Shown one piece after another: positions 22,005 to 64,000 of a stretch of DNA of 64,000 nucleotides; the stretch's first letter is position 1, and every line of letters starts with the position of its first letter. A program made the position numbers and the translations under genes. Below the pieces are notes generated by a model. That model ran no database searches. It had not been told where the DNA came from and saw only the letters and a program-made list of their open reading frames with translations. Source of the stretch: Stieleria bergensis (GTDB taxonomy: Bacteria; Planctomycetota; Planctomycetia; Pirellulales; Pirellulaceae); assembly GCA_007745635.1 (NCBI GenBank), contig CP036272.1:592772-656771 (forward strand). Direction: 5' to 3'.

Positions 22005-24151
<2,147 letters not shown>

Positions 24152-29485: not shown

Positions 29486-32400
29486 TTAGCCCCACAGCAG
29501 ATCTGCAGCGTCGAGCCACAGATGCTCCTCTTCTAGGAGTGACTGATCAATCAGTGTTTGGTGCAATTTCGCGGCAGCGAATTGCCGTCGCTGCCTGCGC
29601 TCGCTCAGCTCGTCACTGACCAGCATCACCGTCGTGGCGATTAATAGCGTTGTGACCAGCAAAGATGAGGGCGACTGCGGCCAATCACGCCCTAAGCGGG
29701 GTGCATGTCCCTCAATGACGTGGCTGACTGATTGATCAAGGGGCAAGTGGACCAGCGTTTCAGGGACAAAGCACTTCACGGATAAGGCGCCGGTGATCCC
29801 CGCGGCCATCTGGCCGTAATAGGCGTACTGAACCGCTGTCCGATCATCGTAGCCAGCCAATTTAGCGTATCCGTAACCCAATCCGGCGCCAGTTGCATCG
29901 AACAGGGCCGCTTTCAGGGCGTATCGAGCAGCGCCAGATGGTCCCTGGACAATTCGTCGCATCAAGGCCGCGCCACCTGATCCGGCAATCCCGCCTGCCA
30001 GCGAGCCAATCATGTATCGATTGGTTGCATCATCCATGGCGGCCGCTGTGGAGTAACCCAGCAGTCCTGCAGCCAGCCCGGCCAGCGCTCCCGATGGAAC
30101 TGAAAAACCATACACAGCGCTTAGGCCCACCGACCAGAAACCGATTCCCGATCCCATGAGTTCTCCCTGGATGTGGGCATCAATCACACCAGCGGCCATG
30201 CCAGCGGCGGCGTACCATCCGGCGGCGGGTGCCATGGCGAATGCGACCGTGGCAATGCCCACCGCTTCGATCGCGGTGGCAATCGTCTGGGATTCGATGC
30301 CAAAGAGCGTGCCATGGTGCAGCCCTTGCTGGCCTGAGGAGACGATCCATTGCCCGACGCTGGTGAGCCCGATGGCGTTGGTTGCCATCCCCGCTTGAAT
30401 GATCGCTTGGTTGCCCGCCCAGACCAGTCCATCGGCAATCGATCCGGCGACCGAATCAACCGCTTCGCCAACTGCGACGAAGGCGTCAATCAGCGGCGCG
30501 AGCATGTCCTGCAAGGCTTCCGTGCTGACCTCGGTTTGGTCGTTCTCGAATGCAGCGCTCAGGACGGGATCGATTCCCATGCCGTAAGTCAACGTGCCAA
30601 AGGAATCATTGTGAACGAGCACAAACTGGTCGGTGCCTGGCAAGCGAACAAAGTAGTTGTGAAACGCGGGGACACAAAAGTTGTAAACTTCCTGGTGACG
30701 GCTAAGATCGTTGCCCGGCGTCTGGATGGATAGCAGTTCGCCCGTGGAGGTTAACAGCTGATCGCCGGCTTTCAATTGACAGGCGTCTTGGAATCGGCCT
30801 GAGCCATCGGCCTGTTGAATAAAAACTTGGTGGCGAGGCGTTAACCAGAGTTGGCTTTCGCCTGCACTGATTGCCATCAATGGTTGTCGACCTTTGTGAT
30901 AGAGTTCTGACACGGCCTGGCAGCACAGGGTTTTCCGTGGCAAGTCCATGCACTTGACTCGGTCGTTCACCTTGATGGTCTCAATTCGCTTTGCTTGGCC
31001 ATCATGCATGAGCACTTCCGTGCCCGCTGGGAAACAGTACTGTCTTGCCAGTGCCTGTGCTTGGTCCGCGCTGCCAGCGAGTTCTGCGGCGCCACTGGCC
31101 TGGGTTCCACTGAGCACAGCAGGCAGCACCATCGCTGGCTCGCCTCGAAAGCCTGCTGCGGCCAGAGATTCTTTGGTGTTGGCAAAAACGGTGGCGATGG
31201 TTGTGGGGTGCACCGCGGGGATGCCTTGGCTGACTTTCGCGGAATGTGCTCCCAGATCGGTGTCCAACCAAATGGGATTTCCCACCGCAGCGCTCGCTAA
31301 TTGGCCTGGCAGGCCCGCTTGGTTGTCACTGCTGTCAAAAAAGTCTAGCAACTCAGCATAGCGATCCTGGCCCTGGACATCGACTTGGTCGACTCCATGA
31401 ACAAAATCCACTTCTTGAGCGATCACATGATCGATCTCTACGTCGATGCTTTGCTGATCGCCGGCCACGTTTCTCGAACCCGACTGCGATCCTGCGCTGG
31501 ACCAGCGGCGAGTTACGTGACCGGTGCGTTGATCACTTTGCTGACTGAACGAGTAGCTCTCGTCGCCGGATAAGGTGACGTCGTAAAGGCCACTTGGATG
31601 GGTTCCCGATTGAGTCAGCGTGTAGACATCGGTACCGGTTTCGGTGGAGGCTTCCTGTCCCAGAATATGGTCTGATTGGCTGTTTCGTTGGAACTCTTTG
31701 AGGCCCTGGCCTGATAGCGTCGCGGTCAATGCATCACCTCGATCAACCGACTGTTCAAATGAGTACGATTCGGTGACGTCGTCGGTTGAGTTTGCGATCC
31801 CAATGATCGAGTTTCCGGAGGTGAGCAAGCTTTCTGTGGTCGCTTGCATGCTTTGGTAATCCAGGTCACCATGATTGTGAGTGCCCCGTTGGTGTAACGA
31901 CTGGTCGCTGATCAGGTCGCCTGTTGTGCGGAAAATCCCCGTGATCACGTTGCCTTCATTGATAAGCGTTGCCGTGCTTTTCTGTGTCTGTTGCGCGACA
32001 TAGTCGGAGCGATCGTCGTTGCTTCGAATGGATTGAGTCACCTCACTTTCGAACGCCTGCTCACGTTCGCTTTGAAAGCTGCCCGTCCATTGATTCGAGA
32101 CAGACAGATCATCGATCACGGTGGTGCTTGTTTGCAGCCAGTCCAGGTTGTCGCCTGCGTCGGTCAGTAATTGCCGAGAAACGGTTGCTGCCGATTCCTG
32201 GTGCAAGCTGTCTTCACTAACGCCAGTGACCAAATTGGCTTGGCGCGAAGTGGTGGTCACTTCGTCCGAATCAATGATGGTTTCATAGCTTTCAGGACGA
32301 TTTCCCCGTTCGATCCGACGGCTGCTTGAGCGGCTTTCGGTTTCGCTGCTTAGGTTGCCTTTTAATTCATTCCGTGTTGTGATGGATTGAGCGGTTAAGG

Positions 32401-35400
32401 AGCTGTCAATGGAGACCGTGTCCGTGCCATTCTGGTACCAGCCCTCCTGTCGATGGTTGGTGGTTTGAGTCAACGTTTCAGTGATGGAAGCGTCGGTCGT
32501 GATTCGATTGCCAGTGATCAGTTGTTCGCTGGTGGCTGATTCTTCTAATTGGTTGTTCGTCGAATGATGCGGCCAGGTTGAAAGGTGACTTGCGGTTCCT
32601 TCCTGTGATTCATTCACATTCCGCTCATAGGATCCTGTCCATTGATTGCCTGTTTCGCTTGCGACACTTTGAGTCGTCAGCTGGCTTGAGTCGAGTTGCT
32701 GAAAATCACCGTTGCGAAGTTCGGCGTCACGAGCCTGAGAGAGCTCTGTCCGTTCGCTTCGCTCAAACTGTCCTGATAAGCGATTGCCGGTCGTCGTTTC
32801 CACAGAATTCGAGTCGGTCGTCATCGAGTCTTCGATCACCTGAGTTTGGTTTTCGGACAGCGTGTTGGTGTCCGTTGTCACGATGGCATGGCGATCCAAG
32901 GTGTACGTGCCACTGATGTGGTTGCCCTGATGCTGCTGAGTGGTCGTTGCCTTGGTGTTGGATTCACTTTCAATCAGTAAGGTTTGATTCTCGCTGGTCT
33001 GATGGGAGAAGCTTTCCGAGAGGGTCGTTGACTGCGAGTCAAAGTTTGCCTCACGCGTGTTTCCCGATTCGACTTCTTCGTGAGTCACCGATTCGGTGCT
33101 GTTGGATTCGACCCATTGGTCTTGGTTTTGTTGCACTTGATGAGTGGCGGTGTCGTTGGTGACAACGATCTGATTCACATAATCACCCAGCACAGCGTTG
33201 CCCTGCGTCGTTGTGTTGGATCGGTGCACCAAATCGCTTGTCAGATCGGTGGACAAGGTTTGGTTGGTTGTTTTCACCGTCGAAGAGGTCTCTTCGTTGG
33301 TCTCGGCGTTGGAGGTGTATTCGCCTGTGATTTGGTTTTCGCTGGCTTGCTGAGTGGTTTCGCCGGTGGTGTGACTGACCGAGGCAATGCTTTGGCCTTG
33401 GTTTTGTTCGCTGCGTTCTCGTGTAACATCGTGATTGTGCTGGCTTTGCCTGGCGAACACTCCCGTCACGACGTTGCCCGTGGAGTCAGACAGGAGAGTT
33501 GACTGGGAGGTTGTTTTTTCTGTTGTTTGCGCGCCCTGGTTGTCGGTTTCAGTGGTTTGAGTCAATGCCGAGGTGGACGTGGTGGCAAGGGTTTGCACGC
33601 CGGTGATTCGATTGCCGTTGGCAGTGCTGGTTTGCTCTTGTGAGCTATTGGCGGTTCGGTGAACCTGATACGTTTGATTGGAGCTGGTTTCGCTGACGGA
33701 TCCATCGCGCTGCAGCGTTGTTTGTTGCTCAAAGTCTCCTGTGATCCGATTCTCTTCGACTTGAACTTCATCGCGAATTGAATCGGTGCTGGCGATGTCC
33801 ACCACGGAGAAGCCCGCGTTGTTTTCCTGGGTCGTTCCTGCGGATTCGGTCTCGGTCTTTGTCAGCGAGGCGTTTGCCCCGGTGAAGTGATTGCCTTGAC
33901 TGGTTGTCGATGATTCCGTGGTGCTGCTGGATCGGTGATCTGCGGTCAGAGTCAGGTGTTCAAAGGTTTCAGAGAAGGTGTTGACGGCGTTTGATTGCGA
34001 TGTCGTGCTGTAATCCCCCGTGACACTGTCACCCAGTTCGGAAGCTGTGGTTTCGATGCTTTGTGTGGTGATGGAACGCGTCGCCGGTCCGGATTCATTG
34101 CTTTGTTCGCTATCGGATTGGTCCATCTGGCTTGTTGAGCGAGAGTAGCGTCCATCGATGCGGTTGCCGTCTTCGCTTACGACAGTCGTTGTTGACGTTT
34201 GATAGGCCGAGGTTGACTGCTCGACTTGGTTGCGAAGGGACCCGGTGGAGGATTCGTCGCGTGTGCTCTCGGTCGTGTCGCTGTACTCTCCGGTGTATTG
34301 ATTGCCGTCGCTTGTTAGCGACGTGATGGTTGTGACGCGAAGGTCTTGACCAGTGACCAGGGTTTGATTGACTAAGTCTCTGCGGATGATTTCGTTCGTC
34401 TCGCTTTCCGTTTGGAGGCTGAAGTCGCCCCCGATCCAGTCCGAGTTTCCTTCCGAAAGGCCGCTGGTCTCTCGCCTCACCGTTTCCGTCACGACTTCAT
34501 GATGGATTTGTTGCCGGTTGGATGATTGCAGAAGTTCATCGAAACTGGACTCGCTCTCATTTGTTCCCTGGATTTGGTTTCCCGAGTTCAGTGCATGGGT
34601 GTTGCGCTCGAGAGTGGCGGATTTGGTTGCCAGGAGCCCGCGATTGCTGGAGCTTTCATCCTGCTGTTCACTGACATTGGATTCTTCGCTGGAGCTAAAC
34701 TGTCCCGATAAAGCATTCTCAGTGATGGTCCGGAGGTTGTTCTCTTGTCCCTGGCGAGTCACAACAACCTGCAGGCCTTGGTTAAGTTGTGTTTCTGTGG
34801 ATTCGTAGGTTCGGTTGATTTGGAGGCTCGAATCAGTCTGGGATGTGAGTGAGTTTCCGGATCGCGTTTCATCCATGGATCGAGTCGATTGTTCGTCTCT
34901 GGTTACCGAGAGGGGGCCATTCGTCTCGGTGACATGATTGGCTTGTTTTACTTCACTATGGCTGTTGCCTGAGAAGACACCGCTGATCAGATTCCCCGAC
35001 GTGGAATTCGAGTACTGATGGGTTTCAACGAGAGTTGATTCGTTTCGTAAGGTTTTGTTGTTTTCCGTGGTCGTGATCGTCGTTTGTTGATGGCCGGAAG
35101 AGGATTCTTCATAGTCACCCGGGATCAGCCAGTCGCTGCGGTTGCCGGTGGATTCATAAGTGGTTGCTTCAACGACATCGATCAAGGACGTGCTGTTCTC
35201 GAGTGTTTCCTGGCGGGTGCGCTGGCCAGAGGTCGTGGTTTCGACCACATTGGTTGCCTCAATTGCATTGCCGGAATACGTTGAGTCCTGTGCAACCGAC
35301 TCCGTCACCTGAGCGATGACGATCAAGGGTTCCTGGGTGACGGTGGAATCAATCGTTGATTCTGTTTGGCGGTTGGCTTGCCCTGATCGCACACCTGTGA

Positions 35401-41400: not shown

Positions 41401-44400
41401 ATCCAATGTTCCCATGGTTATTGATCGAAACTCCGGCGCCAATCTGCTCGTATCCCGATGCCACTAACTCAAACGCGTATCCGCTGGGGTTGCTTCGCAA
41501 GACGATCTGTACAACACCACTGCTGTCCGCTTGATTGCTGCCTACCGATTCGACTGGTGCGGAGCCGTCAGTCAATGCGGCCTGCGCTTGTATGTCAACT
41601 GGTGCTTGTATGTCAAACGGTGCTTGCATGCCAACCGGTGCTGAGGCCAGGCTGGTTTCTAGCGAGTAGACAAATCGATCAATGACATCGATTCCCTGTG
41701 CTTGAAATTGGGCAATGGTTTCGCTGTTGGTTGGGTCGTATCGAAAGCTTCCGTCGGGATGAACCGTGACCCGAGCGCCATATTGGCTGACGCCATCAAA
41801 CACCGCCTGCATTGAATCTTGCTGGCCGTCATCTGGGTCAACGTCATTGATCAGTAGACCTTGCTGAGCAGGTATCTCCAGGACTTGAGAAGCCACGGCC
41901 CAGTACCCGCGTTCGATGCCATCGTCACCTGCGACGGGCGCATCATCGACACCGATCACCTGCAGTGTGACGGTGGCTGAACGCGCATTGGAGTGCAGGT
42001 CACTGGCCCAGTAGACAAAGCGATCGGTCGCCAGTTGGCCGGCGCGGAGGTGTTGAAACGCAGCGCCCGGTTGGTAGTCAAAACCTCCGTCTGGACGAAG
42101 CGCAACGGTGCCGCCTTGTTCGGTTTGTAACGCGGTGCGACTGGGATCGACACGCAACGTGTCGCCATCCCAATCGAGATCGTTCGCCAGCACGCCCTGG
42201 GCCGAGTCAATCACCAAGGAACCCGTCGCCAGGATGGCAGGGTAAGCATCGTGAATGATCTGCGGAGCATCGTTCTGGCCCTGCCAAACCACGTGAACCG
42301 TGGTTTCCGTTGAATCGTCTTGCCCGTCGTGTACTCTGGCCAGGAAACTGTCCTGCATGGTCTGGCCATCGCTCAGCGAGCGAATTTCTGGACTGGAAGT
42401 TGCGTCGACGGTTAGGGTGCCATCTGCTTGAACGTGAACCGCAGCACCCCTCGCGGTTTGAACCGTTCTTGCTTCGGCGGTCAACGCGGCGTTGGCGGCC
42501 CATCCATCGGGATCAACCGCAGCGTCTAAGAGGTTCGGAGCCTCTGTCGCCACGGGTTGCCCGGATTGCCAATATCTCAGCGTCACGTTGTTCAGGATGG
42601 GGGCTTGATTCAGGCTGGAGCCGACAATGATTTGTGCAACCGCAACGCGGGCACTCTCTGGCAGTTGCTCGACGGTTCTGCGGTCACTGGCGCGATCCGA
42701 GAGGCGATACCGAATCTCGTCAACTTGGGTTTCGCCCGCTGGCAAGTTCTGCAGCACCGTAACGTCTGAAGGATCATAGATCCAATGGCTGCCATCAAAG
42801 GTGATGGTCGCCCCTAGCATCGACCGCCATTGAATCGCTTCAATGGCAAGGGTATCGTTTCGATCAATGTCTTGGTCGTTTTTCAGCAGTGATGATTCGG
42901 GGATCACCAAGGACTGATTCGCTCGGGTTGCCAGTCGTTGTGGGGCAGCAGCCCAGTCGTCGTTGGCCCAGTCGTCGTTGGCCCAGTCGTCGTTGGCCCA
43001 GTCGTCGTTGGCCCAGTCGTCGTTGGCCCAGTCGTCGTTGGCCCAGTCGTCGTTGGCCAAGGGTTCATCATTGACACCAGCGATGGTCAAGAACACTGTT
43101 GCTGTGTGCTGTAGATCAGGTGCCGTTGTCAGCGTGTAGGTGAACGAGTCTACAATGCTTTCCCCGGCCGCCAAGCGATCGTAAACACCATGGCTGTGCA
43201 AGACCCAGGTTCCGTCGCTCTGGACATCGACACTGGCTCCCCATGTGGTTTGGCCAGTGCTTTCTAACAGCGAAAATTCGTCGGGAGCCGATCGATCGAT
43301 CAAATCGTTGTCCAGCACGCCGGCGGTCTGAATCCAACTTGAAGCCTGATTGGCCGTCAGGCGAACGAAGTCATTCTTTGCCACAGAATGCTGGGGATCC
43401 GTCATCCACAAGGGATCCGGCAACCAGAGAGAAGACAGAACGGTCCGGCGCTGTTCCGTGAGATCATCATCCATGATCAACTCCGCAACGCCTGTTGTCG
43501 GGGGCGCTGACGTTTGCAGGGTCCACCGGCGGACCTGACCGTCGGCCAATCCAAGCCGATGATCCGAGGATTCGATCAACAGCGAATCAGCTTGTCGCTC
43601 AATTGACCACCAACTTGGAACCTCGCTGAATTCCAAATCCAGGTCTGCTGGCAATGGAAGCTGGATCTGATCGATGGACGCGTGTCCCGAGATGGCGGGG
43701 GAGAGAACAAAGGTGTACAGGGACTGTTGACCAATGGCCTGAACTTGAGAGTGCAATTGACCGGCATGCTGGGAGGCTGTGTCCCAGTTCAGTTCAATGA
43801 CTTGGCTTTGCCGACCATCGATGTCCGCCGCCTGAAAGTACAGCGTTTGTGGCTGGCCAGCGGCCGGCGCGCCCAGAATGGATTCGACCTGATTCGACGA
43901 GAGTTCAAACTGGCCGCTGTGCAGACTTGGCAGGAGGTCAAACACACGATCGTTGAAGCCCGGATCCGCGCTCACCTGCGCGATGACGAGTTCGCGATCT
44001 GACAAGACGACGCCTTGAACGGCAGGTGCCAACCAGGCTCCACCACCGGATTGTTGAAGCTCGAAAGTTGGTGGCAGGAGCGGCCCATGCGTGATCAAAA
44101 GCTGTTCGCGACGAGTCACGCCCGATGCGGTTTCGGCCGTTACCTCAATCAGGTTCTGGCCGGCATTGAGAGTCACAGGGATCCGCGCCCGTCCCTGATC
44201 GTCGGTCTGAATCATCACGTCGGTGCCCGAGAGCGTGAGTGTCAGATCAGGTTCGCCAGTCACGTCAATCATCACGTCGGACAAAGGCGTGTGGTGCGGA
44301 TTGCTGGCTGAGCGATCTGATTCTGCTAATTCAAGTTCCTGTTGGCCAGGAACCCGCGAATCGATCGACAGCAGGAGCGGGGGCGTCTCCTGAGAACGAT

Positions 44401-47400
44401 TTCCAGCTGGGTCTTCGATGGTGGCTGTGATTGAGTGGACTCCATCCGCCAGCGGTCCCAACGTTTGCTGGGCCACTCCCGTCGAATACACCTCCGAGAC
44501 AGCGTTGCCATCAAGATGAAAGGTGACCAGTGCACCACGCTGAGCAAACAGTCGCACCGTTGGGCGAACACTGCCCGTCAGATTGTCCGTTGCACTGACG
44601 CCCCAGTCATCGCTGGACAGAAGGTCGGCAATCGAGTCAACCGATGGCGCCGTGCGATCCAGGTCAAACACCAGTTCATTGATGCGTTCATTCCCGTAGA
44701 GATCAATCGCTGTGGCCTGAACGATGTAGCGACCGTCGGCCAAGGCAGTATCCGGTGAAGTTTCCAGTGCGTCGGCCAGCACTGTTTCTTCAAGGCTGAT
44801 CACTCCGTCTTCTAGATCTGCAAAGACAGAGTGTTCGCTGGAGCCATTGAGGCTAATCTGTACGGCAACCAGTGGTGAGTCGTCGTTGACTTCCAGACGC
44901 AAGCTCGGATCGTTTGTTAAGCCGTCATTCGAATGGCGACCACTGTCGTGGTTTAACGAGAGTCGCAGATCAGGGGCCGTCTCATCGATGAAGTGAATCG
45001 AAATGTCCGAGTGGATTTCATTGCCCGCAACATCCCTGGCAACCACGTGTAACGCGTTCAGCCCTGGCAACAACGAAATTTCGCCGATGGCAAGATGTCC
45101 TTGCTGATTGGCCCGGTTGAAAGAAAGCAGTTGTTGATCGCGGTAGACTTCAACCGTGACGTCTGCGTCCGCTGTCGCTTGCAGTTGCACGGTTGATCGC
45201 GCGGTGTGCCAGCGACTGCCGAGGTCAGGTCGTTGGTGCTGGCGGGGTAATGACAGGATGGGCTGATTGATGGTTTGATCGAGCGTTAGGAATAACGGGG
45301 CAGTGTAGGGGCTCGTGTTTCCGGCGAGATCAACAGCCTGTGCCACGAATCGCTGAGACCCCGGAGTCAGATCGGCCAGGAATCCGATGCTCGAATCCGC
45401 CGCCTGCGAATCCACCAGTCGGCCATCAGCGAATAAACTCACCCGACTGGACGCTTCATGATTCAGTCCCGTCTGTAGCATGACGGTTTGTTGGTTGGTA
45501 ATCAGGTCGCCAACCAATGCTGAGTCATCGATGGCATTCAATTCCAGTGAACTTGGAACAGATGGTGCAAGTTGATCAAGGGTGAATTGGAACGGCACCG
45601 CCTGAGCACGGTTGCCGATTTGATCCACTGCGCGAACGGCAACGCTGATCACGCCATCAGCCATTGGCTGTAGCGATGACGTTTCAAACTGACGTGGATC
45701 AAATTGCAGTTGGTTGCCGACAAGCAACCCCAACGCGTGCACCCAGACGCCGTCGTTGACCTGGATTTCGACTGCGGCTAACTGGCTTGCATCAAGGATC
45801 GTGGCGACAACCGTCGCGTCGCGAGTGATCAAGTCGGTGGAGTCGAAACCTGTGTCATCGGCTAATTCAATCGAAATGTCTGGCGGGCTAACATCGGGGA
45901 CAGACACATGCAGTTCGGTGTTCACCGTGGCGTGATTTCCAGCATCATCAACGACCGTGACGCGAAATGGATTGGAGCCCTCGCGTAGCAGGAGGTCGTC
46001 AAACTGAAAATGGCCGTCTGCGTTGGCAAGGGTTTCGTCGAGTGGAATCTGTCGCCCATCGCCACCGAACAGCATGGCCCGTTGCCCCGTCGTCGATTGC
46101 CCCTGCGGGATTTGCCCCGTCAGGCGGCCACGGTCTGCATTGACTTGGGATAGATCTATCTCGGGAATCAACGGTGCCGTGGCATCGATCGTTACCGACA
46201 GTGGTGGGCTTTTCTGTCCCACATTTCCTGCGGCATCGATCCAGTGATAGCGAACGAGATGCGAGCCCTCGTTCAAACCATCAATCGTGACGTGATTCGT
46301 TTGGTCTCCCGAGACGTTGCCCGAGACTTGGTAGCGACCGTGTTCAATGTCATTCACCCAGACCACGACTTGTCCAGGTTCACGAAACGGGATGGCAAAG
46401 GTCAGTGACGATGACTTTGTTAAATCATCATTGTCATGGATGCCGGTATCGCTGGCGGGAACCAAATCGGGAGCGGTTTGCGCTGAAATCGCGCTGCGAT
46501 CGAGTTGCACTCTAATGGTCGACGTTGCCGAACGATTCTCGTATTCATCGATCGCTTGGAACTCTAATTCATAATGCCCGTCGGGCAGTTGTGCTCCGAG
46601 GACCGTTTCGAGTTCACTGGTTGTTAGCTGAATGACGCCTTGGGCGAGTTCTGTGCCCACGGTCGGTGCAGTGACCAAATCCACTGCATCGAATTCAGAC
46701 ACGACGCCAAGTTCATCGTTCACGGTGGCACGGATGTACAAGTGAGCCAACGGGCTTTCGTCAAGCCAACTTCCCGTGATGGCCAGATCATTTGTTAGCC
46801 CATCGCCTGTGTATCGACCGTTATCATTTGCCAGTCTGACGGCCAACTCAGGAGCAGCGGATTCGGGACGCATGCGAACGATGGCCAATGTCGAGTGGCT
46901 TTGGTTGTTGAACGCATCACGCACCGACAGTTCGACGTGATTGATTCCAAAGTTCAGCGGAATCCCGGTGAGTTCGAAGTGTCCGTTTGGATCGGCAACC
47001 CAGGTTCCAGGCAATCCCAGGATTTCGACGAGGGCTCCCGGTTCGGTCTGCCCCTGCAAGACAATCTCGCCGGTCTCCGTCATGCGATCGTGGCGAACAC
47101 CCGTGTCGGTTGCGGCGCTTAGGTCAATTGACTCAATGACTGGGGCCGTGCTGTCAATCAAGACCGTCAGTGGTGGCGACAATGGACTGTGATTGCCAGC
47201 CAGATCGATCGCTTGAATCTGAAACTGATAGTCACCATCGCCTAAACTATCCAGTTGCAAGGGAAAGGTGCTTGTCGGTCCAGCAGCGACTGCAATCGGT
47301 TGTCCATTTTGAAACAAACGCATCGCGACATCGTGATCGACCTGTCCTTGGATTTGAAAGTCGCCTGTGCGAAGGGTGAGGGTGTCGGCAGCGTTTGGAT

Positions 47401-50400
47401 TGCCAGCCAAGGTGGGTGGTAACGGTGCCAGCGGCGCTGTCTCATCCATGTCAAAATCAATGACGACCTGTGGACTGTGGTTGCCAAAGCGATCTTCAGC
47501 GATGATTCCAATCCAGTAAGCTTGGTCTGTGATGGGCAACTGATTGGCGGTCAACAACTCCTCTAGCGAGAGTTGCAGACTGTTCTCAGTCGATAGGCTC
47601 TCGATCCAGTCCTGCGCGTTGAGCCCATTGACAGAGACGTTTAACGAGCTGATCTCGCTGTAGTCATGGACAAAGACGGTCAGCAATGCATCGCGACGAA
47701 ACGTCTGTGAAAACGATGGTTCAAAGTTGGGCAGCGTCAGTCCTGCTGTCACACGCGGTGCATACTGATCGACAAACTTGTTTTGCAAATTGGTCCAAAT
47801 GGTGAAGTCATAGCGGTCAACGCGTCCATCAGAATCCAAGTCGTGATGGGCAACGTAGTGTTCGTTGCCTTGCAGCGTGTTAAGACTTTGGCGAATGGTC
47901 AGCCAGTCGTCGTGCAAGACCTGACTGTCACCGTTGACATCTGCCAGCAAACGATGGAAAGGGAGGCTGGCGAAGGGTGACGTGGAGTCGGCATCCATTC
48001 CCATCGTCTGTCTGCGATTGGCAGCGCTGGCAATTCCCGTGGTCCGCAGCGTTAAATAGTATTGATCATCTTTGTGGATGAGCCCAGAAACATGGATCTG
48101 TAACGTCGCTGAATCAGCATCGTACTGGTAGCGATCCGGTGGGATGACGATGGGATGCCCCAGCGCATCGACCACTTGAACATCGGCAGCAACGTCCGAG
48201 AACCAAACGTCTTGGTTGAAGGTGACGCTCAGCTCATCAATCGATGATCGTTGGAGGTGGCCGCGATTGATTTGGAAATCCATGAGGGAAACGGGCTGGG
48301 CGATGGTGTGACTGACATCAACCTGCACCGTGACGGTTTTACCGATCGGATCGGCGGAACCATCTTGGGCGATCGCAGTCACCATCACTTGATCTTGGCC
48401 GCTCCAGCCCACCGATGGAATCAATTGCAAGTTCTGCAACTGGTCGGCAGTCAATCGCCAACGACCATCCTGCTGGCGCTGGCCGGCGCTTAGCATCGCT
48501 CCGACAGGTAACGAATCGATTTCAATCAGCAGCATTTCACTGCCATCGAGATCGGTAGATTGGGCGTCAATGATCATCGCCAGGGTTTGTTCCTGGTCGC
48601 CAGAAAGTGGATTCGCTACCAGGATTGGAGCATCTGTGACCGGCAAAATCTGTAGCGATACCAGCGTTTCTTCGCTTTGAAGCCCTCGATGGTCCGACGC
48701 GGTGTACGTGAAGAAGTCGTCGCCCGAGTAATCGGGCATCGGGGTATAGGTCACATGGCCCGTTTCATCGTCGATTTGCAGCGTCCCATGGTTGGGTGCG
48801 GAAACGATCACAAGGCTGTTAGGGTTCAGTTGTTCTTGATCATTCATCAACAGATCCAAGGTCGTTGATTGATCTTCTAGCATCACCGCCTGGTCGCCCG
48901 CAGTCCAGGGTGGCGTCAACGTGTTGCCTCGCAAGTTGAGCGTGTCCACGATCACGGTACTGTCCGCGTGTCCTTGGCCGATGAGATCAAAGGACAGGAT
49001 CGCCAATGAGCCAGTGGTGACGGTGGATAAATCGATTTGCACATGCATCTGACCGTTCGTCCACTGACCACCGAGGTCATTGCTCGGTCGCGCTGGTGTG
49101 ACATCCACCATGGTGACACCGTTTGCCGTCATCGCCGTTCCATCCGCGGCAAAGCTTAGCAACGCGTCGCTGTCATGTTGCGTCAACGCTGGAACCAAGG
49201 GTTGCAGCGTCTGAGCGTCTAAGAGTGCGACTTCAAACGCATCAGGAGCTCGATCTTCTGTCGCATTGAGTTGCAGTCCCTGGAGATTGAATTCCAAGAC
49301 GGTTGCTGTTTGCGGAACATAGAACCCTTGTCGTAATGAACTTCGTGAACCAGGCGATTCGTGGATCTTCGCTTGCCCTGATTCAATCACGGCATGGCCA
49401 CTCGGGGACCAACCCGAAACGGTGTCGAAATCACCATTGCGGATCCCAATGATCGCATCATCCAGGATGACCAACGAGTGCGCGAGGGGCCCCGGTGAAC
49501 TGGACGGTGGATTGACGGTGACGCTGGAGATGGACGCTGTGGAGAGCGAGAACGGTCGCTCAATTTCAGTCGCTGGTGCTTTGACTGCGGACTCCGGTTC
49601 GCCGGTTGTCGCCAGGAGATTGGCCCCCACGATCTGCCGATCCGGATCAAAAAAGAATCCGCGATGTGAGACCGGACTTTGCTGGCTGCGACGGATGCCA
49701 AAATTCACTCCCAGCCATTGGCGATCTTGCCGATCGATCACTCCGTCGACGTTGAAGTCAGCGCGGCGGTTGTAGTTCAATTGGCCAAACGTTGCTCCGC
49801 TGTGATCCCAAAATTGCTGACTGTCGTAGCCCGAGACTGCTCCATCGCCGTTGATGTCGCCGATCAGGTCGATCGTCAAGCGATAGTCACTGGCGGCCAG
49901 CATCTCAGATGCACCGATGTTCAGAGCGTAGAGTCCGGCCTGGTGGACAGCATACACCGCCGAAACCCCGTCGCCGTGACTGCCAATGGCGAGCGGTTGC
50001 AAGCCATCGATCTGCGGCACGGCGGGCGAAAAGTGTCGCCCGTTGCCCTCTAGGTGCACTCTTAGCCAGACTTGTTGATGAGCGGTCTGCTGCAATTGGA
50101 CGGGATCAATTCGGAAGGCAAAGGACTCGATTTGCTGGGGGGACAAGCGACCGGTTTGTTCGAATCCCGCAAATTCCACCGTGCCGCCCAAGTCCTGCCG
50201 AATGGGACGCTGAGATGGGTAATGTGTTCCACCACCGTTGGAATCTGTTGCAACCTTTAGCACGTTGAGGGTGGGATCGTCCACCAGCGGAAGATAACCG
50301 TACGCATGCAATCGCAGCGGCGCTGAATCATCATCCGCTTCGACCCGGTAGACAGCGACAAGACGATTCTGGTGATCAGATTCATATTGCAATTCAGCAT

Positions 50401-53400
50401 CAGGCAAGCGGATGGCGGTTGGGCGTCCCTGTTTGTCACGCACGATCGGAACAAACGTGCCATCGCCGAATCGCAGTCCACTGTCACTGTTTTTCACGAC
50501 CGTTTGGTCAAGCACTCGGCGTTGAAGAAACTTCCCTTGTCCGTTCAGGTGGTCGATCACGCCATCGGCATAATGAATCGACAAGGCCTCCGCAGCGGAT
50601 TCTGAATCATCTTGTTGGACCGCGCCTGGATGGTAGGGAACACCGTTGATTGCATCGTAGAACGTGTCGCCACCACGAATCAAGCGTTGACTGGGCGATC
50701 GTAGCTGAACATTGACGCCGTCCTGGCTAACCCAATGTGGTTCAAAGTACTGTGGGCCACCGGTGGATGCTGGCGCCTCAATCGCGAGCGGTTCGAAGCG
50801 GAACGCGACGCGGCGTCCCTCCTTGAGCGTTAGGTACACACGCTGTCCCCACCGGATGCCTTGCCGGACGGGGTAGCCGCCTTCGTCGCTTCCAGTCACT
50901 GGGACAGGGTATTGAACGTGGTAGTCATCCCAGGTGAATTGCCATTGATCTGTCAGTGCATCGTATCTGCGCTGCAGTGCAAAGGGTTTGTCGTTCACCT
51001 CCAGCACCGCATCAACGTCCACACGCTGAAAGCCCTGTGTTTTGTCGCTGGTCAGGATCTCGATCGGCTGTTCGATCGAGGCAATGTTTCCTGACAGATC
51101 GGTCGTCGTGAGTCGCAAGCGATAGTGTCCATTGGCAAACCGTCGGGGGTCCAGGGTGGTCAACAAACTCTCGTGACCAACGATGTCGTCTTGATTCAAC
51201 AAGCGTGCTGACTGGCTGTCCGTTGCGACCAGTTCCAGAGTCCAGTTCAGCAAGTTGGGTGCAACAATGCTCGCTCGGATCTCTCTAGGCTCGGTGATCA
51301 ACGCATCGTCAAGGTTGGACCAGGCGATCTGCATTGGCTGATTGACAGGGCCGCTTCGTGGCTTGAGTTCGCGTGATTGGGTGCCGATGAAACCATCGGC
51401 ATCATGGGCCGTAGCTGTCAGGTGGAGCGACTGATCAGCGGGCATCTCTAGAGAACCGACGCCGTTTGCATCCAGCGTGACGGGTTGTTCATTGGCCACC
51501 AGTGAACGCTGCACGATCGCTGCGATTCCGCTGGCTATCACTTGGACACGGATCGATTGGCCGGGTGTGGCTGCTTGCAGCGGCGTGGTCACGATTTCAA
51601 TGATTGGCTGACTGGCGATCGCAGTCACGTGGACTTGCAGCGTGCCTCGCGAGATAGCCACGCCATCGTCAACCAATAAGTCGATCACATGCACACCCAG
51701 TTGGCCGGGACTGGGGGACCAGCGAATGACAGGCCGTTGTTCATCGAACGTCGCGCCCTCCGGCAGGTTTGCGACCGTGTACACCAAGTCGTCATCCCTG
51801 TCCAAGTCATCAGCCTGAACTTGATATTCGAATGGCTGGCCGACCAATGCTTGGGACACTGCATCTGCAATCTGAGGGTTTCGATTGAAATCTGAGATGA
51901 TCATTGGAACCGTGACCTGCTGGGCCGCGCCCTGAGCATCTGTCAGCATGAGGTCAATGGAATACCGTCCGGCCTGATCGAAGTCGGGCAGCCAGCGAAC
52001 TCGGCCGCGACTGGGATCGAAGCTGGCGCCTCGGGGTAAGTTGGCCACCGACCAAGTCGCCGAGTCTGCATCGGGGTCCGCCCCAAACACTCTGAATTCA
52101 AGGGGCGATCCTTCACGCCCAAACTGTGGCAAGGGATTAGAGATCAAGGGCGCTCGATTCGTGTTCGCGACATCAATCGTCAATTGAAATGACTGTGCCG
52201 AGGCTCCATCACTGACATGCAGGCCAATGGTGTGTGTGCCCGCTTGGTCATGAGCTGGCGTCCAAAACAGCTGTCCCGTCACAGAATCCAGGCGAGCGCC
52301 TAGCGGCAAGGCGGTGCTGGTCCAATGCAAGGCGTCATCCTCCGGGTCCGAGGTCTGCCACTGCATCGCCAATTCTTGACCCTCACTGACTTGAACCGAG
52401 GCGGTTTCCATATCAGCATGTTGCAACTGCCCTGCAGAGCGATCAAGCAATTCCACGCTGTTCACCTGCGGCGGCGAGTTCTGTTGACGAACGATCAAGT
52501 CAAATGGTGTTGTGGTCGACAAGGAACGATTGGTCTCTCCGTTGCCAGAGTCCCTTGCCGTGACGGTGACCTGGTAACGTCCAACGTCTGCTGTGCCGGG
52601 ATCGAACTTCAATAAGTACTGCCCGTAAACCGGTCCTGCCAACAGCACTGCTCGATCGGGTAGTCCCGAAAAAGTGACCGACAGTGGCTCTTGATCGGCA
52701 TCGAAAACCTGGAGAGGTACTTGGACGCGCGTGTCGACTAGGGCAACGGTGTCGGGAATGGGCTCGATCGTTGGCGGCTCATTTTCGCTTAACACGACCA
52801 CCGAGAAGTCATAGCGTGACTGAGCGATGAAGTTCGCTCCCTCGCCGTCGCCGTCATCCGTGGCAACCAGGCTGAACGTGTAGCTTCCCCGGTCGCCCAC
52901 CGTTGGTTGAAGCTCGATCGTTCCGGTTCCGTCCTGATGGTCGCTGAAACGAATGAACGATGGCAACGCAGCATGGTCGGCCCAACGGTTGAGTTGCAGT
53001 GAGACTGGATTGCCTTCGGGGTCGGCGGCTGTCACAGGGACCTGTAGCGTTTGGTCTCGCGTGATTTGAATCGCATCAATCGGCTCGATCACAGGAGCCA
53101 GGTTGATCGGCTGGACTTCGACCACCAAGGTTGTTGAGGCCGAATGGAGTTGTTCTGTTCCATCGCCATCGTCGATGGCGGTGACTTCAATTTCAAAGCG
53201 TCCCGATTGATGATGATCTGGTGTCCATTGAAGCTGTGCCGTTTGGAAATCGAACGTCGCACCGGCTGGCAAGTTGCTGACCTGATACTGCAAGCGTTCA
53301 ACAGGATCCCCGTCATGATCGGGGTCGATCGCGCGCATCGAGACATCAAGCGACTGGCCTTGCTGGAGGTAACGAACCGGTCGATTTTCAAAGAACGGAA

Positions 53401-56400
53401 TGCCGTTGGCATTGAGTACTTCAAACGGCAGCGTCAATTCGCTGGAGTGCTGGCCGGCATGAACTTGAATGGGAATGCTCAACTGCGACGGTGCAGCGTA
53501 GCCAACGCGCCACTGCAACAAACCGGTTTGATGATCTAGCGTGGCGCCACTTGGCAAGTGTTCCGAAGTAAAGGATAAAGTGTCGCCGTCGGGGTCGCTT
53601 GCCTGAACGTGATGCAGCACGAAGTCTCCCTGTCGGACGGTCAAGGAATCAACGAGTGTGACAAGAGGTGCTTGATTGAGATCCATGACGTCAATCGTAA
53701 AAGCGTGTGTTGTCGTCTGCTTGCCATCGCTGGCGAAGAGAGTGACATCCCGGTAGCGGCCTGCGGAGTCCGCTGTCGGTGACCAAAGCAGATGATTTGA
53801 ATCGGGGTCGAAAAACATGCCCGGCGGCAGGTGATCTGCCCAGACCTCGATGGGATCGCCGTCGACATCTAACGCATTCAACGCAATCGCCAGTGATTGG
53901 TCTTCGCGTAGTGTGAGATCGCTAGGTGGATCAATCCACCGTGGAGGACGATTTCCACCAATCACTTGCAGTTCAAACGCTGTCGATGCGATCGCTCCCC
54001 GCGAATCGATCACGATGACCCCGACGGTGGTCTGCTGTGGGGAGTCGCTGTTGGTCTGCCAGGAAAGTAAGCCAGTCTGTTCATCAAGTTGCATGCCCTC
54101 CGGTCCATCGACCAGCAGGAACCAGAGTTGACTGCCGTCGGGGTCTTGCCCCTGGAGTTGATGTTGGTATAAAGCTCCCGCATTGATTGACGCGGGATTT
54201 GGTTTCTGGAGTTGCGGCGGTTGGTTGACCGTCGCGCTGGCAAACAGAGTTGGAACGAAGTCCGCCGAACCGACTTCATCAAGCGACAATTCAACGGTCA
54301 CTGAATCGGTGCTTTCACCGGGACGCAGGCTCAATGTCTCGGGTAAGGCGGGGGCAAGATCCACGAGCCAGGTGTTCAATTGCGGCGACCACGCGGCATT
54401 CAAGGGGACGGAGTCCGATGACGCACTGTTGGGACTCAGTCCCAGCGACATCGGTAGCAAGAGATCGTATGGCGTGCGATTGGTGAATCGAACCTCGTAA
54501 CGAACGGTTTGTTCCAAACGGTGGTATCGTGTCCCGGTTATTTCCCATTCAACTTGTGCCGTAAAGTCACTGACGGTTTGGAAGGCAACTTGATAGGCGG
54601 TCGGCAGCGGGAAACCGCCACGGCTTTCGATGCTGGGGACCACCGTCAACTGATAGTCACCGATTTGCATGCCTGCAACGGAAACCAACGCCGTGCGTGA
54701 ATCCGCGTCATAAATTATGGTGTTGATTTCGACCTGATCGGTGGGTTGATAAGTGTCGCTCGGATCGTTGCGGTAACTTAGAAGGTAGTTGTCCGGATTA
54801 AGAACTGATCCCGGATGATCAGGGGCGTGTTCGTTCATCGGTTGGCTGAAGGTCACGCGCAACGTTGCCAGTGGAAGCGCGGCGATCGTTCCCGGTGCGG
54901 GACGCGTCGCGACGACCTGTGGAACGCTGACCGTGCTGAGCCGGTCAACGGTGTCCGTCTGGCTGACATAGATCGCGCCATCACGTCCTGTCATCACGAC
55001 ATCGCCGCGCGTGCCACCACGGGCGATGATTGCGCGTTGCCCACTGCCGGGGTCAATCATCGTGAGATGGCTGCCCTGGTCCGTCGGTTCACCGTTATGA
55101 GACACAAACAAGAGGCCTGACAAAGCCGTTTGCGGTTGCCCAAAAGCGATGGAATCAATCGGCGTCTTGAACTCCGCGACGGTGGATGCTCGTCCCGTTT
55201 CCGAAAACTGCACCACACGATCACGCTGGGGCCAAACCACCGCATGCAGTCGCCCGGATTCGTCAAAGGCCAAGCTGCCGTAACGCAAGTTTTGATCGCG
55301 TGTGAATCGAGTGAATTGGTGACTTTCAGGATCAAAACGCTCGACGCCGAATCGAGAGCCAACGAAGACATTCTGCGAAATTGGATCGATTGCTAGTCCC
55401 AAGGTCAGTCCGTCACCATATTGCTCGATCAAGGATCCGTCGCTTGGATCAAGTAGCAGCAGTGGGCCGCCACCGGTTGTCGCCCACAGACGCCCAGCAT
55501 CATCAAACTGCATTTGATAAACAGGGTAGGGCAGTTGGTGAATCAGGGCTGCGGCGGTGCCTCCGGCGTGTCGATCGCCGCGCTGACCAAATCGATACAG
55601 TTGATTGCGTCCACTGCCGGCAACAATCCACCAGTCGCCCTGGGGTGACTGGGCAATTGCAGTCGGACCAATGCCCGATGCATCTTGCAAGCCACTAAAG
55701 TTGCCCGCAAAGCGCTCCAATTGAAAAGGCTGGACGGCGGACTGAAAGGAGGGTTGCGAGGCTCCATCCTCCTCCGTCGCGCTGACGACTTGCTGAGCCG
55801 CTGCGGACAGTAATGGATGAGGTGCGCTGGTGGTCCGGGCCGCCCGTGGGATCACCGGTGGCACGCTGGTTCCACCGGCGGCCGGCTGCCCGGTCACCGA
55901 GTGAACACTGCCATCAAAGGGAACGATCGCCCCAAGCGGTGGTGAGGCTTGATTGCCGGCCCAGTCGGTGGCCAGTGCCAGGAACTGATAGTTTTCTCCT
56001 GGAAGCCCTTGGAAGACGCTTGAGCCTTCGGGCTGAGCCTCCTGCCGTTTCCAAAGTTGGTAGTTGGTTCCATCTTTGGACACATAAAGTGACACGTGCC
56101 GCACCCCGCTCCCTTCGGTCTCCTCGTTAGCCAGCCAGGAAACCTGCCACCGTTCCTCGGTTTGTGAGACCGTTAGAGAAGCCACTGGCGGTGTCGCATC
56201 CAATTGGTAGATCAATGGCTCGGCAGCATCCGGTGCAGTGAGATCGGATTGCCATGAGGCACCCAAGCGAATCGAATTGCCAGTGCTGGCCGTGGGAAGT
56301 GGCTGGACTTGGTAACGTACATAGCCCGCACCGTCACCCCTGGCGTTATTCGGTGGCAACAGTCCTCGCAGTTGATCCGTCAAGACTTGGCCCGTGGCAG

Positions 56401-59400
56401 GGTCAATCGCTTGAATCAACCAAGACGCGGTGGAGTGAGTCGCGTCGATGCCAGCGCTTAATCGAATGTTGAATCCCAATTGTTCTTGGAGTTCATAATC
56501 GCGTTGATACTGTGGTCGGCCTGTTGGCAGGGTCAGTTGCAAATCCCCAAGCCGAATCTCGCCCAGCGTGAAACGTGTTGGATCGATCAGCGGATCCAGT
56601 GGAACGTGCAGGCGAATCTCGTTCAGATACCGGCCGTTCTTTGTTGTGTTCTGAAAATGAACCGCCATCGGAATCGCTTGATCCGCTGCCAGGTAACCGG
56701 ACGATTGAATCGCCAGCGGTCCTTGCTGGGAGATCGTGCCGGTTGCAACGCGATCCGATTGCGTTTCACCCACGGGGGGATGAAGCGGGAACAACGGCTG
56801 CTGATCATTGGTCAGGATGCCATTGACTTGATAGTCTGCGGGGATGCCAGTGTCGCGTTGGTGGAACGGCACCCAGGGCACGTAGACGCGAGTGCTTTGA
56901 AAGTGCGTCGGTGACTGCAGCCCCAGGTCAACGTCGTCGATCGTCGGTACGATAGCAACAGGGTTGGGGTTTTTCAGCATCGCTAGCAACGCAAGCGAAT
57001 CCGCTGTGAAACTGTCACCGGACAATTGAGTTTCCGCCAACTGATCTGAGTCATGCCCGTACCACATCCGCAGTTGTTGAAACAAATCCACCGGATTGCC
57101 ATTTGCGATTGCTGTTTGTCCCGCGGGGCCATTGAGCACTAACCCTGCAAGCGACGCCACTTGGCTGATCAAAACGGTATCAATCGTGGACAGCTGATCC
57201 ATTCGATGCAGCTGACCGGAGGATCTTAAGGAATCGAGATACAGCGCCGCCCACTGATTGGCGTCAGCGGCCAAGGAGACCAAAGCAACATCCGCGCCGG
57301 GATCTTGCAGAATCCCTTGGCGCAGGATCTCGCCCTGAGTGATTGCATAACGAATGAATTCGTCTTCGGTCATCGCTGTCGCCGAGGCAGCGACATGGAA
57401 CTGGAATGGGACCAAGGGCTGAACTAAAAGATTGGGGACAGAGCCGAACGTTTCCCAAAGCAAGTACAGCCCCGGCCAGATCAGATCCAGAGCCTTGGGA
57501 CCTTCGGCCAGCAGGTCCGTTTCCGCGTATTTGGGAAGCGCCTCGTAGATCTTTGCTTTGAATTCTTCCCAGGCGTGATCATGCAGCGCTTGCAAGCCGG
57601 GGTAGGTTTGTACATCAAAACTGATTCCCGTCATCTCCTGAGCGGCATGCGCAAAGGCGTAGCCTGAGGCCGTCACGTAACCGTCCAAGTTCAACGCTGA
57701 GTCCAGCAGCGCCCACTGTTCTGAATCACTTGATTCACCCAGCGATGGTTGCCCACCTAAGTTGGATGCAAAATGTAAAAACGGCAGGTTATGCACCTGA
57801 CGGTTGACGCCTAATGCAGGGACTTGCACATCAAAAGCCACATAGGACGCATCCACATTGCCGATGTTCTGCAAACTAAGACTGTAAGTGCCGTTATCAC
57901 CTGCGAAGACATAGCGAGGGCCACCAATGCCAACGGCGATCTCGGCTGGCACCGTTGATTCGATCAAGAAACGATAGGGTGCGACAACGGTTTGACCATC
58001 TGGGTTGATCACCTGTACGTCGTACAGGCCATGCAAGGCCTCGTTAAACTGAAATCGGACGCGGAGTTCGGTCGCTGACAGATGCTCGATTGCCGCCGGT
58101 TCGATCTCCGCGAACCCCGGACGCACTAACCGCACGACTGCGTTGGTATCAAATCCTGCACCATGAATAGATGCCGTTACCAGTCCCGTGTCGCCAGCGA
58201 AATCGGTTTGCACATCGGTGATCGTCAGTGGCAGGGTCCTGGCCAAGACCTGAACGGGGATTGGGTCGGGGTCGGGTGCGATCACAGCGCCCCGGTTGCG
58301 CAGCAAGACGTAATAGATGCCAGCTCTTGTTTGCGGAACGATTGCGCTGGCCTGTGTGGAAACCAAGCCCGCCGAACGAGCATCAAACTGATTGACAGTC
58401 GGGGCTTGGCCGTACCGAACAAACACTTCGTTGCCCGTTGCCGAGTCGCTGTTGATGGCTACTTCCAAGGTTTCGCCCGCTGAGACCTGAACGGCAAACA
58501 ATCGATCTGCCGTCGCGATCTGTGAATCCAGTGCCGTGCCCAGTTGGATCGTTGTGGGCGTGATGGTCAGAGTGGATGCTGAGGCTCCCGCGTTGTTCTC
58601 GTTGGCATTTTCTTCATAGGCTTGGTCGAAGATGTCGGTGCGAACCAAGGCGTAATAGGTGCCAGGAGTCAAAGCGGGGGCGGCAACGGTGATGACTTTC
58701 GAATAGCTTTCCCCTGCTGCTAAAACGCCGTCAAACTCGCTGGTTGGCAGCACGTGGTCTGTTGCGTCCCACGCCGCGTCCTGGCTTAGATAGACGGCAT
58801 CAAACCAGCGCCCTGTGACCGGTTGGTCGCTTTGATTGGTGACTGTCCACTGCAGCTGAAACTCCTGCCCGACTTCGCTCAGCTCGCTAACCTCGATCGA
58901 GGAGACCACCAAGTCGACGGGAGCTGGAAGCTCGATGAGCGTTGGCACCGGATCCGCGTTCGTGTTGTTGTGCTCCTGTTTCCCTTCGAGCACCTTGCCG
59001 TGAGCGCTGCGGCCCAATGGATCTGTGACGACCATCACGTGAAAAGGACCTAAGAGATCCGGGGGTAGATCCAACAAGACGCTGACGGTGCGCTCTTGGC
59101 CAGAGGGCAATCGGTCTTCATGCCGAAAGGAATCTAAGTAGAGGTCCGTGGTCACATCTAAATACTGATCGCGTGAAAGATAGACATGATCGAACCAAGC
59201 GGTTTGGTCAGGTGGCATTGCACTGCCTTCGTTCGCGACCTGATAGCTCACTTGAATCTGACCAGCCTTGGGAGCTCGCTGGGGAGCCTCGACGGTGGTC
59301 ACTTGCAGGTCTGGAAGTGTGGTCGCGTTCACATGCAACGGGAGCGTCAGCGCATTGTTTCCCTCGTTTTGGAATTCATGAACCCGACCGCGAGCGGATC

Positions 59401-62400
59401 GTCGTGCCGCTTGTGATGCCAAATCCCAAGGTGCTAATTCACCAGGCAACTCAAACTCCAAACCGGTCAGTCCCAAACCAATGTGGCTTGGACGGTTTCC
59501 GCGATCCCGACTGGCCGCAGCATCGGCAAACACGGTCACGAAGAAGTCACCCTCGATGCCCGCTGGGACATTGACACGGACCGTCCGTGTTTCGTGCTGT
59601 CCGGGATGCAACACTCCGACACGCGGTGATGCCAACAATTGAGTGTCGGTTTGATCGAGGGAGGGATCATGTGAGAGAAACACTCGATCCGTCCACGACG
59701 TTTGACGTGTGGCCCGATTGCCCACGTTGGTCACGGTGTACGTTATCTCGATTGATTGTCCGGACGCAACGACAGCGGGGATCGTGACGTCGCTAACCTG
59801 TAGATCAGCTTCGTAATAGCTGATCGGCAGATCAACTCGGAACAAGTTATCGCGTGGATCTTCAAACGCCCATCGTTGGAAGTGGCTGAGCCAATCCTGA
59901 TTGCGTCCCTGCTGGATCGGAAACCAATCGGTCCGCAAGATTCGTGAGTCATAGGGAAACACCAAGGGGCTAAGATCATTGTTTGCATTGAGATGAATCC
60001 ATAGCGAATAATTTCCGTCGGTGCCCTCAGGCAACTGGATCTCTTTTTCAATGGTATAGCGATCGCCGGGCTTCAGTGGCTGGCTGGCAAGATGAGTGGC
60101 TTCGCCCAAGTAGGATGCTCTGTGACGATGAAACTCTTGGTCTGGTGAAAGCCACAGAAAGTCCTTCCAGTATCCAGTGCCCGGCCAGAGGGTTGTCTGG
60201 CCAACGTTCTCAACGGTGTATCGCAGCGAGACGACTTCACCCGATTGAGCTTGTTGAGGCAATTCGAAATCCACAATCGCAAGGTTGGCCGCCTGGACGG
60301 TTACATCAACAGGAGCGGCGCGCCAGTTGTTTTGTTCGTTGATTTCGGTGACGGTTTGAATCACCGGTTGGGTGTCGATCGCGCCCAGGCTTTCATAGAT
60401 CACTGACAAATCGAGACCACCGCTGGAGGGCTGCACCGCATCGGTAATCACGATCAGGTATTGACCTGTGGTTGCCGGTGAAAGCAGGATCGAAAGTTGT
60501 TCGGCATAGGAACCACCAGCGACCAAGCCGCCTTTGCGTTGCACTTCGCCAAGCAAGAACGTGTTGGCATCGTCGCGATTTGGGTTGGGCGAATCGCTTA
60601 GATACACACGGTCGACCCATGGCCCCGGACCGGCGTCGCTGAGCCCCCGGTTTTGCACGACCCAGGAGACGTCCAGTTGCTGTCCCGCGGTCAGCGATGC
60701 GGGGGCATCGATCTGAGTGACCTGTAGATCGGCAAGCGATCCGATGATGTCAATCGCGGCAGCTTGATAGTTGTTGTTGTCCGCTTGTAACGGATCGTCC
60801 AAATTGATCTTCGTCGAGAGCGTGTCTTCCACGATCCTGTCATAGGAGTCGACCCACGGCATGATGTACCACTTGCCCGATGGCAGCTGGTCGGGGAGCG
60901 TCACTGACACCTGTTCGTCATAGCCGGCCAGACTCTGTAGGCTGCCTTGGTGGGTTTCGCGGCGCAGCAAATGGTCGCCTTTACCAGGGTGTGGTCGATT
61001 GCGATCCTGGGTCAACCAAATGGATTGGTCCCACTGCATGGCGTTGGCATCGTTGACGCTGCGAACGGTTTCACCTGGTCCATAGTTCGTCACCGTAAAG
61101 CGAACATCAATCGTTGATCCCGCGATGGCCTGATCTGCGACGACAACGTCTTCGACAACAAGGTCTGGCAACGGCGTGGGCTGAATGAACAACGATTGGA
61201 CTCGGATGTCATTGCCGTCGTGAGGCCATTGGTCAATCTGGTCCTTCGCGTCGGTTTGCACGATCACATAGGCGTCGCCGCGAAATCGCATGGGAACCGT
61301 CAAGCCGCTGACTTGCGAAGCGTACTCCGCGCTGGATTCCAACGCGCTAACCGAATCAACCTCACCCAGCAACAGGTCCGCTTCATCGATGGACGCATCA
61401 AGCGACAGGTAAACACGATCCACCCATTGTTCTGACCCTGTTGCCGCTGTTCCCTGGTTGATCACGGTGAAGGAGGGCGCCAGGACTTGACCGGGGCTTA
61501 ATTGTTCGGGGATGTCGATCGAGCTGACTTGCAGATCAGGTCGCCGATGGGCGTTGACCACGACGTTCTGTTGCCGTTGATTGTTGGTGACCGATTGGCC
61601 TTCGTAAACGTCGCCGATCGCGTCAGTGATCACGACGAATTCAAACGCGCCGGCCAGCTGGCCGGGGATTTGCACCGACTCGCGGCGGGTGTAGGACTGA
61701 CCAGCCAACAGTGATTCGCCGCGACGATAGCTTGCCAGCAAACGGTCGCCGGATGCGCCACCGGGCGCGCTGGCCGGATCCAGCGGTCGCAACAGCAGGC
61801 GATCCTGCCAACCGGTCAGCGAGTTGGCATTGGTGACAAGATCTCCGTTGCCAGTATTGCTGACGGTCCACTGGACATCAATCCGGCTGTCTTCGGTAAA
61901 CTGCTCGGGGACTTGAAGGGATTGAATCTGCAGATCTGGCAATGGTGGTTCAGTGATTGTTACCAGATCACTGAGTGCCCCGTTGTTTTGATCGAAGATA
62001 AATTCATAAGGCGCCTGCCGTGCAGCGCTGCGGACGACAACGTAATGTTCGCCCTGTAAGCCGTGTGGAATCAAGATTTCGGCTTCGTGCGTGTACTGTC
62101 CCCCAACGGCAACTTGTCCAAAGTGTTGCCACTCAATCAACGTGCCGTCAATTGGCGCCGCGGACTGCCAATCGTCCGCCGGTTGGCTCATCAGGAAAAT
62201 TTGGTCCACCCAATCGCCGCGATCCGTGATGCCCAAGCCTTGGTTTTCCACCGTCCAGCGAACTTGCAATGTTTCGCCGGCGTCAATCTGGCCAGCCAGT
62301 TCAATCTCCGTGACAACCAGATCCGCAGGCAACGATTGCATCAAGTCGATGGGCTGAGATGCTTGCCGGACGTTGTTTGCCTCCTGTTGATTCTCGAATA

Positions 62401-64000: not shown

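Follow-up and report, generated by a model that had tools for sequence, protein, structure and literature searches.

The DNA analysed here is a 64,000-nucleotide stretch of Stieleria bergensis (the window; bases 592772-656771 of a genome assembled as one contig, CP036272.1, of 7,107,266 bases). It carries a single giant gene on the minus strand, whose product ends with the first residues of a second Hint domain and is probably the scaffold part of a polymorphic toxin system with a split Hint. Within the window the frame runs for 11,504 codons without a stop (29486-64000) and closes with a TAA at 29486-29488, and translation of the neighbouring stretch (L002) revealed 943 more open codons past the window edge. 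Ten codons separate the upstream stop from the first ATG, which lies at genome base 659570 (L002:3571), 2,799 nt outside the window edge. The coding sequence thus comprises 37,314 nt and encodes 12,437 amino acids, the N-terminal 933 codons lying outside the window (L002:773-3571, minus strand) and the C-terminal 11,504 codons and the stop inside it. The TTG at 63844, rejected as a start in an earlier note made from the window sequence alone, is indeed internal, because the frame continues upstream to the ATG at base 659570.

The giant open reading frame (ORF) is real. The chance of 12,437 random codons without a stop is about 1e-209 at the base composition of the gene, the remaining five frames contain 345-523 stops each across it, and the GC contents of the three codon positions (GC1, GC2, GC3) are roughly constant along it, with a drop of GC1 in a zone rich in S, T, Q and N. 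A search of 13 other Stieleria-like planctomycete genomes (G001-G013), with the Hint end and the N-terminus as queries, detected 15 homologous genes in 11 of them, two each in G001, G003, G006 and G012 (strain TBK1r, CP036432.1, S. magnilauensis) and one each in G002, G004, G007, G009, G010, G011 and G013, and none in G005 and G008. A possible part of a second copy lies on a short contig of G009. Except for the G007 copy, these genes are open across 12,782-13,995 codons, in line with the stop-free frame claimed for the window. Each of the 14 open homologs can be aligned to the window protein along 12,024-12,170 residues; identity is 38-40% overall and lowest (13-22%) at residues 9501-10000. 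The N-termini of the homologs begin much like that of the window protein.

That several genes were fused by lost stops, misassembly or a frameshift might be argued from a perfect 15-nt tandem repeat of 7.2 copies inside the gene (window 42951-43058, encoding a repeated ANDDW), a slippage-prone spot at which the frame is nevertheless kept, and from the G007 copy (L069-L071), which is broken and split over several frames, the longest of 6,880, 4,667 and 1,734 codons. Because the 14 open homologs are collinear across at least 12,024 residues, the gene is neither an artefact, a reading already refuted in practice and extremely improbable, nor a recent mosaic, and its architecture is, as judged from these alignments, old and collinear. 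The growth by repeated fusion that had been suggested for it is accordingly a weak explanation. Its rank among the longest bacterial proteins needs care as well, since congeneric products reach 13,990 amino acids and an Omnitrophota ORF of 39,678 amino acids has been published (PMC10066038). The product of the G004 gene, counted from the first Met, has exactly the 13,990 amino acids of S. varia Pla52n_23610, a “tandem-95 repeat protein” with a predicted role in adhesion (PMC7717043).

The C-terminus of the window protein carries one complete Hint domain and the beginning of another. The complete one, Hint1 (30608-31036, minus strand; CFPAGTE ... TPRHQVF ... VHN), matches PT-HINT (PF07591) with 42.9 bits at a cut-off of 27.7, and its first Cys and final HN are conserved in all 16 homologs, the window protein included. 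A Gly/Ala-rich hydrophobic linker domain (29777-30607, minus strand), aligned across the 16 homologs, leads from Hint1 to the first 12 residues of the second Hint (Hint2-N, CFVPETLVHLPL; 29738-29773, minus strand), followed by a predicted membrane helix (LLVTTLLIATTVMLVSDEL; 29606-29662, minus strand; hydropathy 1.74) and the residues SERRQRR, with more K and R after the helix than before it. The codon pattern for CFV[AP][GDE]TxV has its sole match in the whole genome in this gene.

Eight of the 16 homologs (G001b, G002, G003b, G004, G006b, G009, G012b and G013) contain a complete Hint2 (CFVAGTPVHIP or HLP ... VHN) and end with 143-170 further residues that differ between most of them; those of G002 and G009 are alike, and G006b has their first part. 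The end of G012b matches Tox-REase-2 just under the cut-off, and the remaining seven have no Pfam match at E 0.05. The other eight (the window protein, G001a, G003a, G006a, G012a, G007, G010 and G011) end without a toxin, stopping 78-112 residues after the Hint2 Cys with about 12 Hint residues, a hydrophobic helix and a charged tail. The Hint2-N motif is conserved at 0.70, compared with 0.13 directly after it, is followed by a hydrophobic helix in all 11 tails compared, and also occurs in the ends of three further large proteins, each encoded just before a gene for the rest of the domain (Hint-C). In a tree of the protein bodies, constructed without G007, the short-tailed proteins form two separate groups, one of the window genome, G010 and G011 and the other of G001a, G003a, G006a and G012a, the latter with the fused G004 as its sister, which indicates that the split or fused state has changed at least twice.

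The Hint-C genes encode an N-terminal helix, the rest of the Hint domain and a variable domain, in several cases a recognised toxin. In G001, G003, G006 and G012 such a gene starts 68-73 nt after the stop of the giant gene, the variable domain in G012 being Endonuclea_NS_2. Others lie away from the giants: two each in the window genome, G010 (one of them some 5 kb from its giant gene) and G011, two plus a broken one in G007, one in G002, and three on fragments in G009. TxxH is present in 47 of 49 Hint-C proteins and HN in 48, a count to be read with the filter used, which itself demanded H, P or Q followed by N, D or G. The parts on separate genes cover the domain once, with Cys1 on the N-part and TxxH and HN on the C-part. 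As far as sequence can tell, the tail of the window protein thus keeps about the first dozen residues of a second Hint, the remainder of which is encoded at other loci in the genome.

The two Hint-C genes of the window genome, at 2.889 Mb (L127) and 3.011 Mb (L128), are unlinked to the giant. They share 91% identity over about 1.69 kb, ending four nucleotides past the last codon of the Hint, and past this junction both the toxin and the next small ORF differ, as is typical of polymorphic toxin exchange, and the pair presents exchangeable C-terminal toxins with apparent recombination at the junction. The L128 toxin is a predicted Colicin-DNase/WHH (32.1 and 29.0 bits; cut-offs 25 and 25.1), and the L127 toxin domain has no Pfam match. 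Among the C-terminal domains, Colicin-DNase/WHH, Endonuclea_NS_2 and AHH score over the Pfam cut-off and Tox-REase-2 just under it. Candidate immunity genes, by position, are a 236-aa ORF (L127:6401-7111) starting 15 nt after the L127 toxin gene and a 150-aa ORF (L128:7168-7620) starting 22 nt after that of L128. Two genomes from another family of the class (G107:C1:3927861, G445:C1:6663140) have Hint-C-like matches as well, inside frames that stay open for 10,696 and 11,157 codons, so that giant Hint genes extend beyond this genus.

The rest of the giant protein consists largely of repeats, all encoded on the minus strand. CARDB repeats (PF07705, 190 bits, 5 stretches) occupy approximately 58601-63403, and He_PIG/cadherin-like Ig repeats (PF05345, 165 bits, 6 stretches in the piece window:52001-64000, with further stretches in the next piece) approximately 51581-54253. 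Two dockerin-like stretches (PF00404, both within the piece window:40601-52600) follow, one placed by eye from the translation at 49700-49870 and the other, the best Pfam stretch, at 47798-47944 (residues 1553-1601 of the piece); no member of the cohesin family was found in the genome. Big_13 Ig-like repeats (PF19077, 214 bits, 5 stretches) lie at approximately 43901-47503, and the tandem-95 repeat profile NF012211 scores 164 bits at a cut-off of 90 (window:40601-52600), placing the protein in the tandem-95 class. The earlier note was right about a surface-type repeat protein with two internal dockerin-like stretches. Its ten domain types do correspond to many Pfam names, but these are mostly variants of Ig-like or cadherin-like sandwiches (CARDB, He_PIG, Big_9, Big_13, Cadherin_4/5) plus dockerin and Hint. 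That note did not include the C-terminal Hints, the split of the second one, the homologs with toxin ends or a 46-residue repeat.

The 46-residue repeat (consensus GN.ITG.FS...NQ...; 32375-37459, minus strand), which makes up the S/T/Q/N-rich zone, has 32 copies above a threshold set from shuffled segments, and 30 of the 31 spacings fall within 2 residues of multiples of 46. The nine of 15 homologs scored have 34-43 copies; none was counted in G036, a giant from another genus that has only an N-terminal stretch in common with the window protein. A model of eight repeats shows 16 antiparallel strands, each about 20 residues long (predicted local distance difference test score, pLDDT, 94.7), and the best structural match is an apoB100 entry. 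The repeat precedes the Hint, a place held by RHS repeats in a carrier protein of G005. Downstream of the giant, the next gene encodes an IS200-like (Y1_Tnp) transposase (28286-28963, minus strand; PF01797, 35.7 bits) and starts about 520 nt away, where four congeners have a Hint-C/toxin gene; an IS110-family transposase gene also lies downstream (window 22627-23841).

Taken together, the family appears from its sequences to be one of giant polymorphic-toxin proteins, and we assign a probability of about 0.6 to the reading that the giant serves as scaffold in a polymorphic toxin system with a split Hint. The split of the Hint between genes is strongly supported by the sequences; its action in trans is hypothetical. 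The scaffold would be exported, its C-terminal helix keeping it attached to the cytoplasmic membrane (N-out); the Hint-C/toxin protein would be a type II membrane protein (C-out), and Hint2-N and Hint-C are predicted on the same membrane face. The two halves may then come together at the outer face and restore a functional Hint. Cuts at the scaffold Cys and behind the HN of Hint-C would either release scaffold and toxin or join the two. A single scaffold could in this way be armed with toxins from unlinked cassettes, of which the window genome has two. By analogy with other polymorphic toxins, the likely use would be antibacterial competition. More tentatively, and with considerable doubt, the toxins may be covalently loaded in trans, an outer-face reaction of the bacterial intein-like (BIL) type ligating scaffold and toxin and cutting both from the membrane.

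A number of observations weigh against the split-Hint scaffold. Class 1 splicing requires Cys, Ser or Thr right after the final Asn. HN is followed by A, S, M, N, L or other residues, by S or T in just 13 of 49 Hint-C proteins and by Cys in none, so that ordinary splicing is unlikely; this argues for cleavage or BIL-type chemistry, and the domain is likened to cleaving or BIL-type Hints instead of splicing inteins. No Hint-C gene adjoins the giant in the window genome, where the transposase gene stands instead. G009 (85% complete, 1,210 contigs) has Hint-C genes, and no short-tailed giant was seen there; G008 has Hint-C-like genes and no match to the pattern; and outside the genus such a Hint can be complete in one short protein (G021, L144). 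The window Hint2-N deviates from the common motif (CFVPETLVHLP versus CFVAGTPVxxP), and conservation before the motif is 0.40-0.44, so that the contrast is sharp on the following side alone. An ungapped comparison (0.87/0.53 versus 0.18-0.34 before) overstated the contrast and took in three tails found by the motif itself. Net charge after the helix is negative in 4 of 11 tails, and the helices of two tails are weak (hydropathy 1.33 and 1.48). Model confidence is low at residues 14-17, perhaps owing to alignment depth, 26 of 34 rows lacking the start. Only one of the eight fused C-terminal domains has a Pfam match, slightly below the cut-off, and the immunity genes are a guess from position alone. 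As to export, the leftward extension proposed in the earlier note yielded the start of the gene, but a classical signal peptide was not recognised in the giant protein. Its N-terminus (MPSRSVSK...SPFESLEDRRVLAA) is similar to the extracellular motif of planctomycetes, with PF07595 (Planc_extracel) below the cut-off in the N-terminal 933 residues (17 versus 25.5 bits, E 0.01). These residues match Planc_extracel alone, and the TPS domain of CdiA/two-partner secretion was not found.

Some of these points would also be expected if the protein were a giant adhesin whose toxin end is vestigial, the branch of the window having lost its toxin and the 12-residue Hint start being a relic, with the Hint-C/toxin proteins acting alone, perhaps through Asn-driven C-terminal cleavage without the first Cys. 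The transposase gene in place of a Hint-C gene beside the window giant, the Ig, cadherin and CARDB repeats, which suit adhesion, and the description of the S. varia homolog as an adhesion protein (PMC7717043) are in line with such a history. A relic would, however, not be expected to show the strongest conservation in the tail, to turn up again in the ends of three further large proteins encoded just before Hint-C genes, or to have a hydrophobic helix behind it in every one of the 11 cases, and we hold a vestigial end to be possible but doubtful. Less likely still is a plain giant adhesin or matrix protein, in which the Hints just trim the C-terminus and the toxin link is limited to the sister genes. 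The protein is mostly Ig-like and beta repeat and its complete Hint1 has no toxin after it, but body and linker are homologous end to end with those of the eight genes that have a full Hint2 and a variable end, and Hint2-N has been kept in the branch of the window.

The split-Hint scaffold offers a testable role for one class of planctomycete giant genes, with a natural Hint divided near residue 12 over two predicted membrane proteins. To our knowledge, this split place is known solely from engineered inteins. If the halves react, a costly scaffold would be kept while its warheads are swapped via small unlinked cassettes, and very short N-halves of natural origin would become available to biotechnology; the prediction is that a single Cys of a 12,437-aa protein governs the release of toxins encoded megabases away. 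Covalent loading, if true, would allow one filament of about 12,400 residues to be armed with any of several distantly encoded toxins, would extend to several kinds of giant planctomycete proteins, and would represent the first natural split Hint that we know of in weapon assembly. In the available parts of earlier reports, planctomycete giant genes are counted or called adhesins without a mechanism (PMC5177795, PMC11573180, PMC7717043).

Among known systems, the HINT polymorphic toxins (Zhang et al. 2012, PMC3482391) are alike in the long repeat backbone, the HINT before a variable toxin, junction recombination and standalone cassettes. Unlike them, the giant family has two successive Hints on a backbone of about 12,400-14,000 residues, and half of its members divide Hint2 over a scaffold and a toxin protein with a predicted membrane helix each. 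The tandem-95 adhesins and planctomycete giant genes of the three reports above belong to the same gene class as the window giant; the available text of PMC7717043 calls the S. varia gene an adhesin and does not mention a Hint, a toxin end or a split. Among RHS toxins, the split-Hint carrier of G005 (P0121, Stieleria tagensis) has RHS repeats, CARDB and He_PIG, whereas the window gene has no PF05593 match in pieces jointly covering the whole protein and holds the 46-residue beta repeat in the RHS position. As far as is known, atypically split inteins splice ordinary host proteins, and 11-residue S1 splits are on record from engineered inteins. The BIL domain of PDB 2lwy is a single chain, while the Hint2 of the giant family is naturally divided after about residue 12. 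The atypically split inteins VidaL (6vgv) and Cat (6dsl), found among the matches, share a short Cys-bearing N-half and a long C-half with TxxH and HN; in the giant system, unlike in these inteins, the halves reside on two predicted membrane proteins and the C-half bears the toxin.
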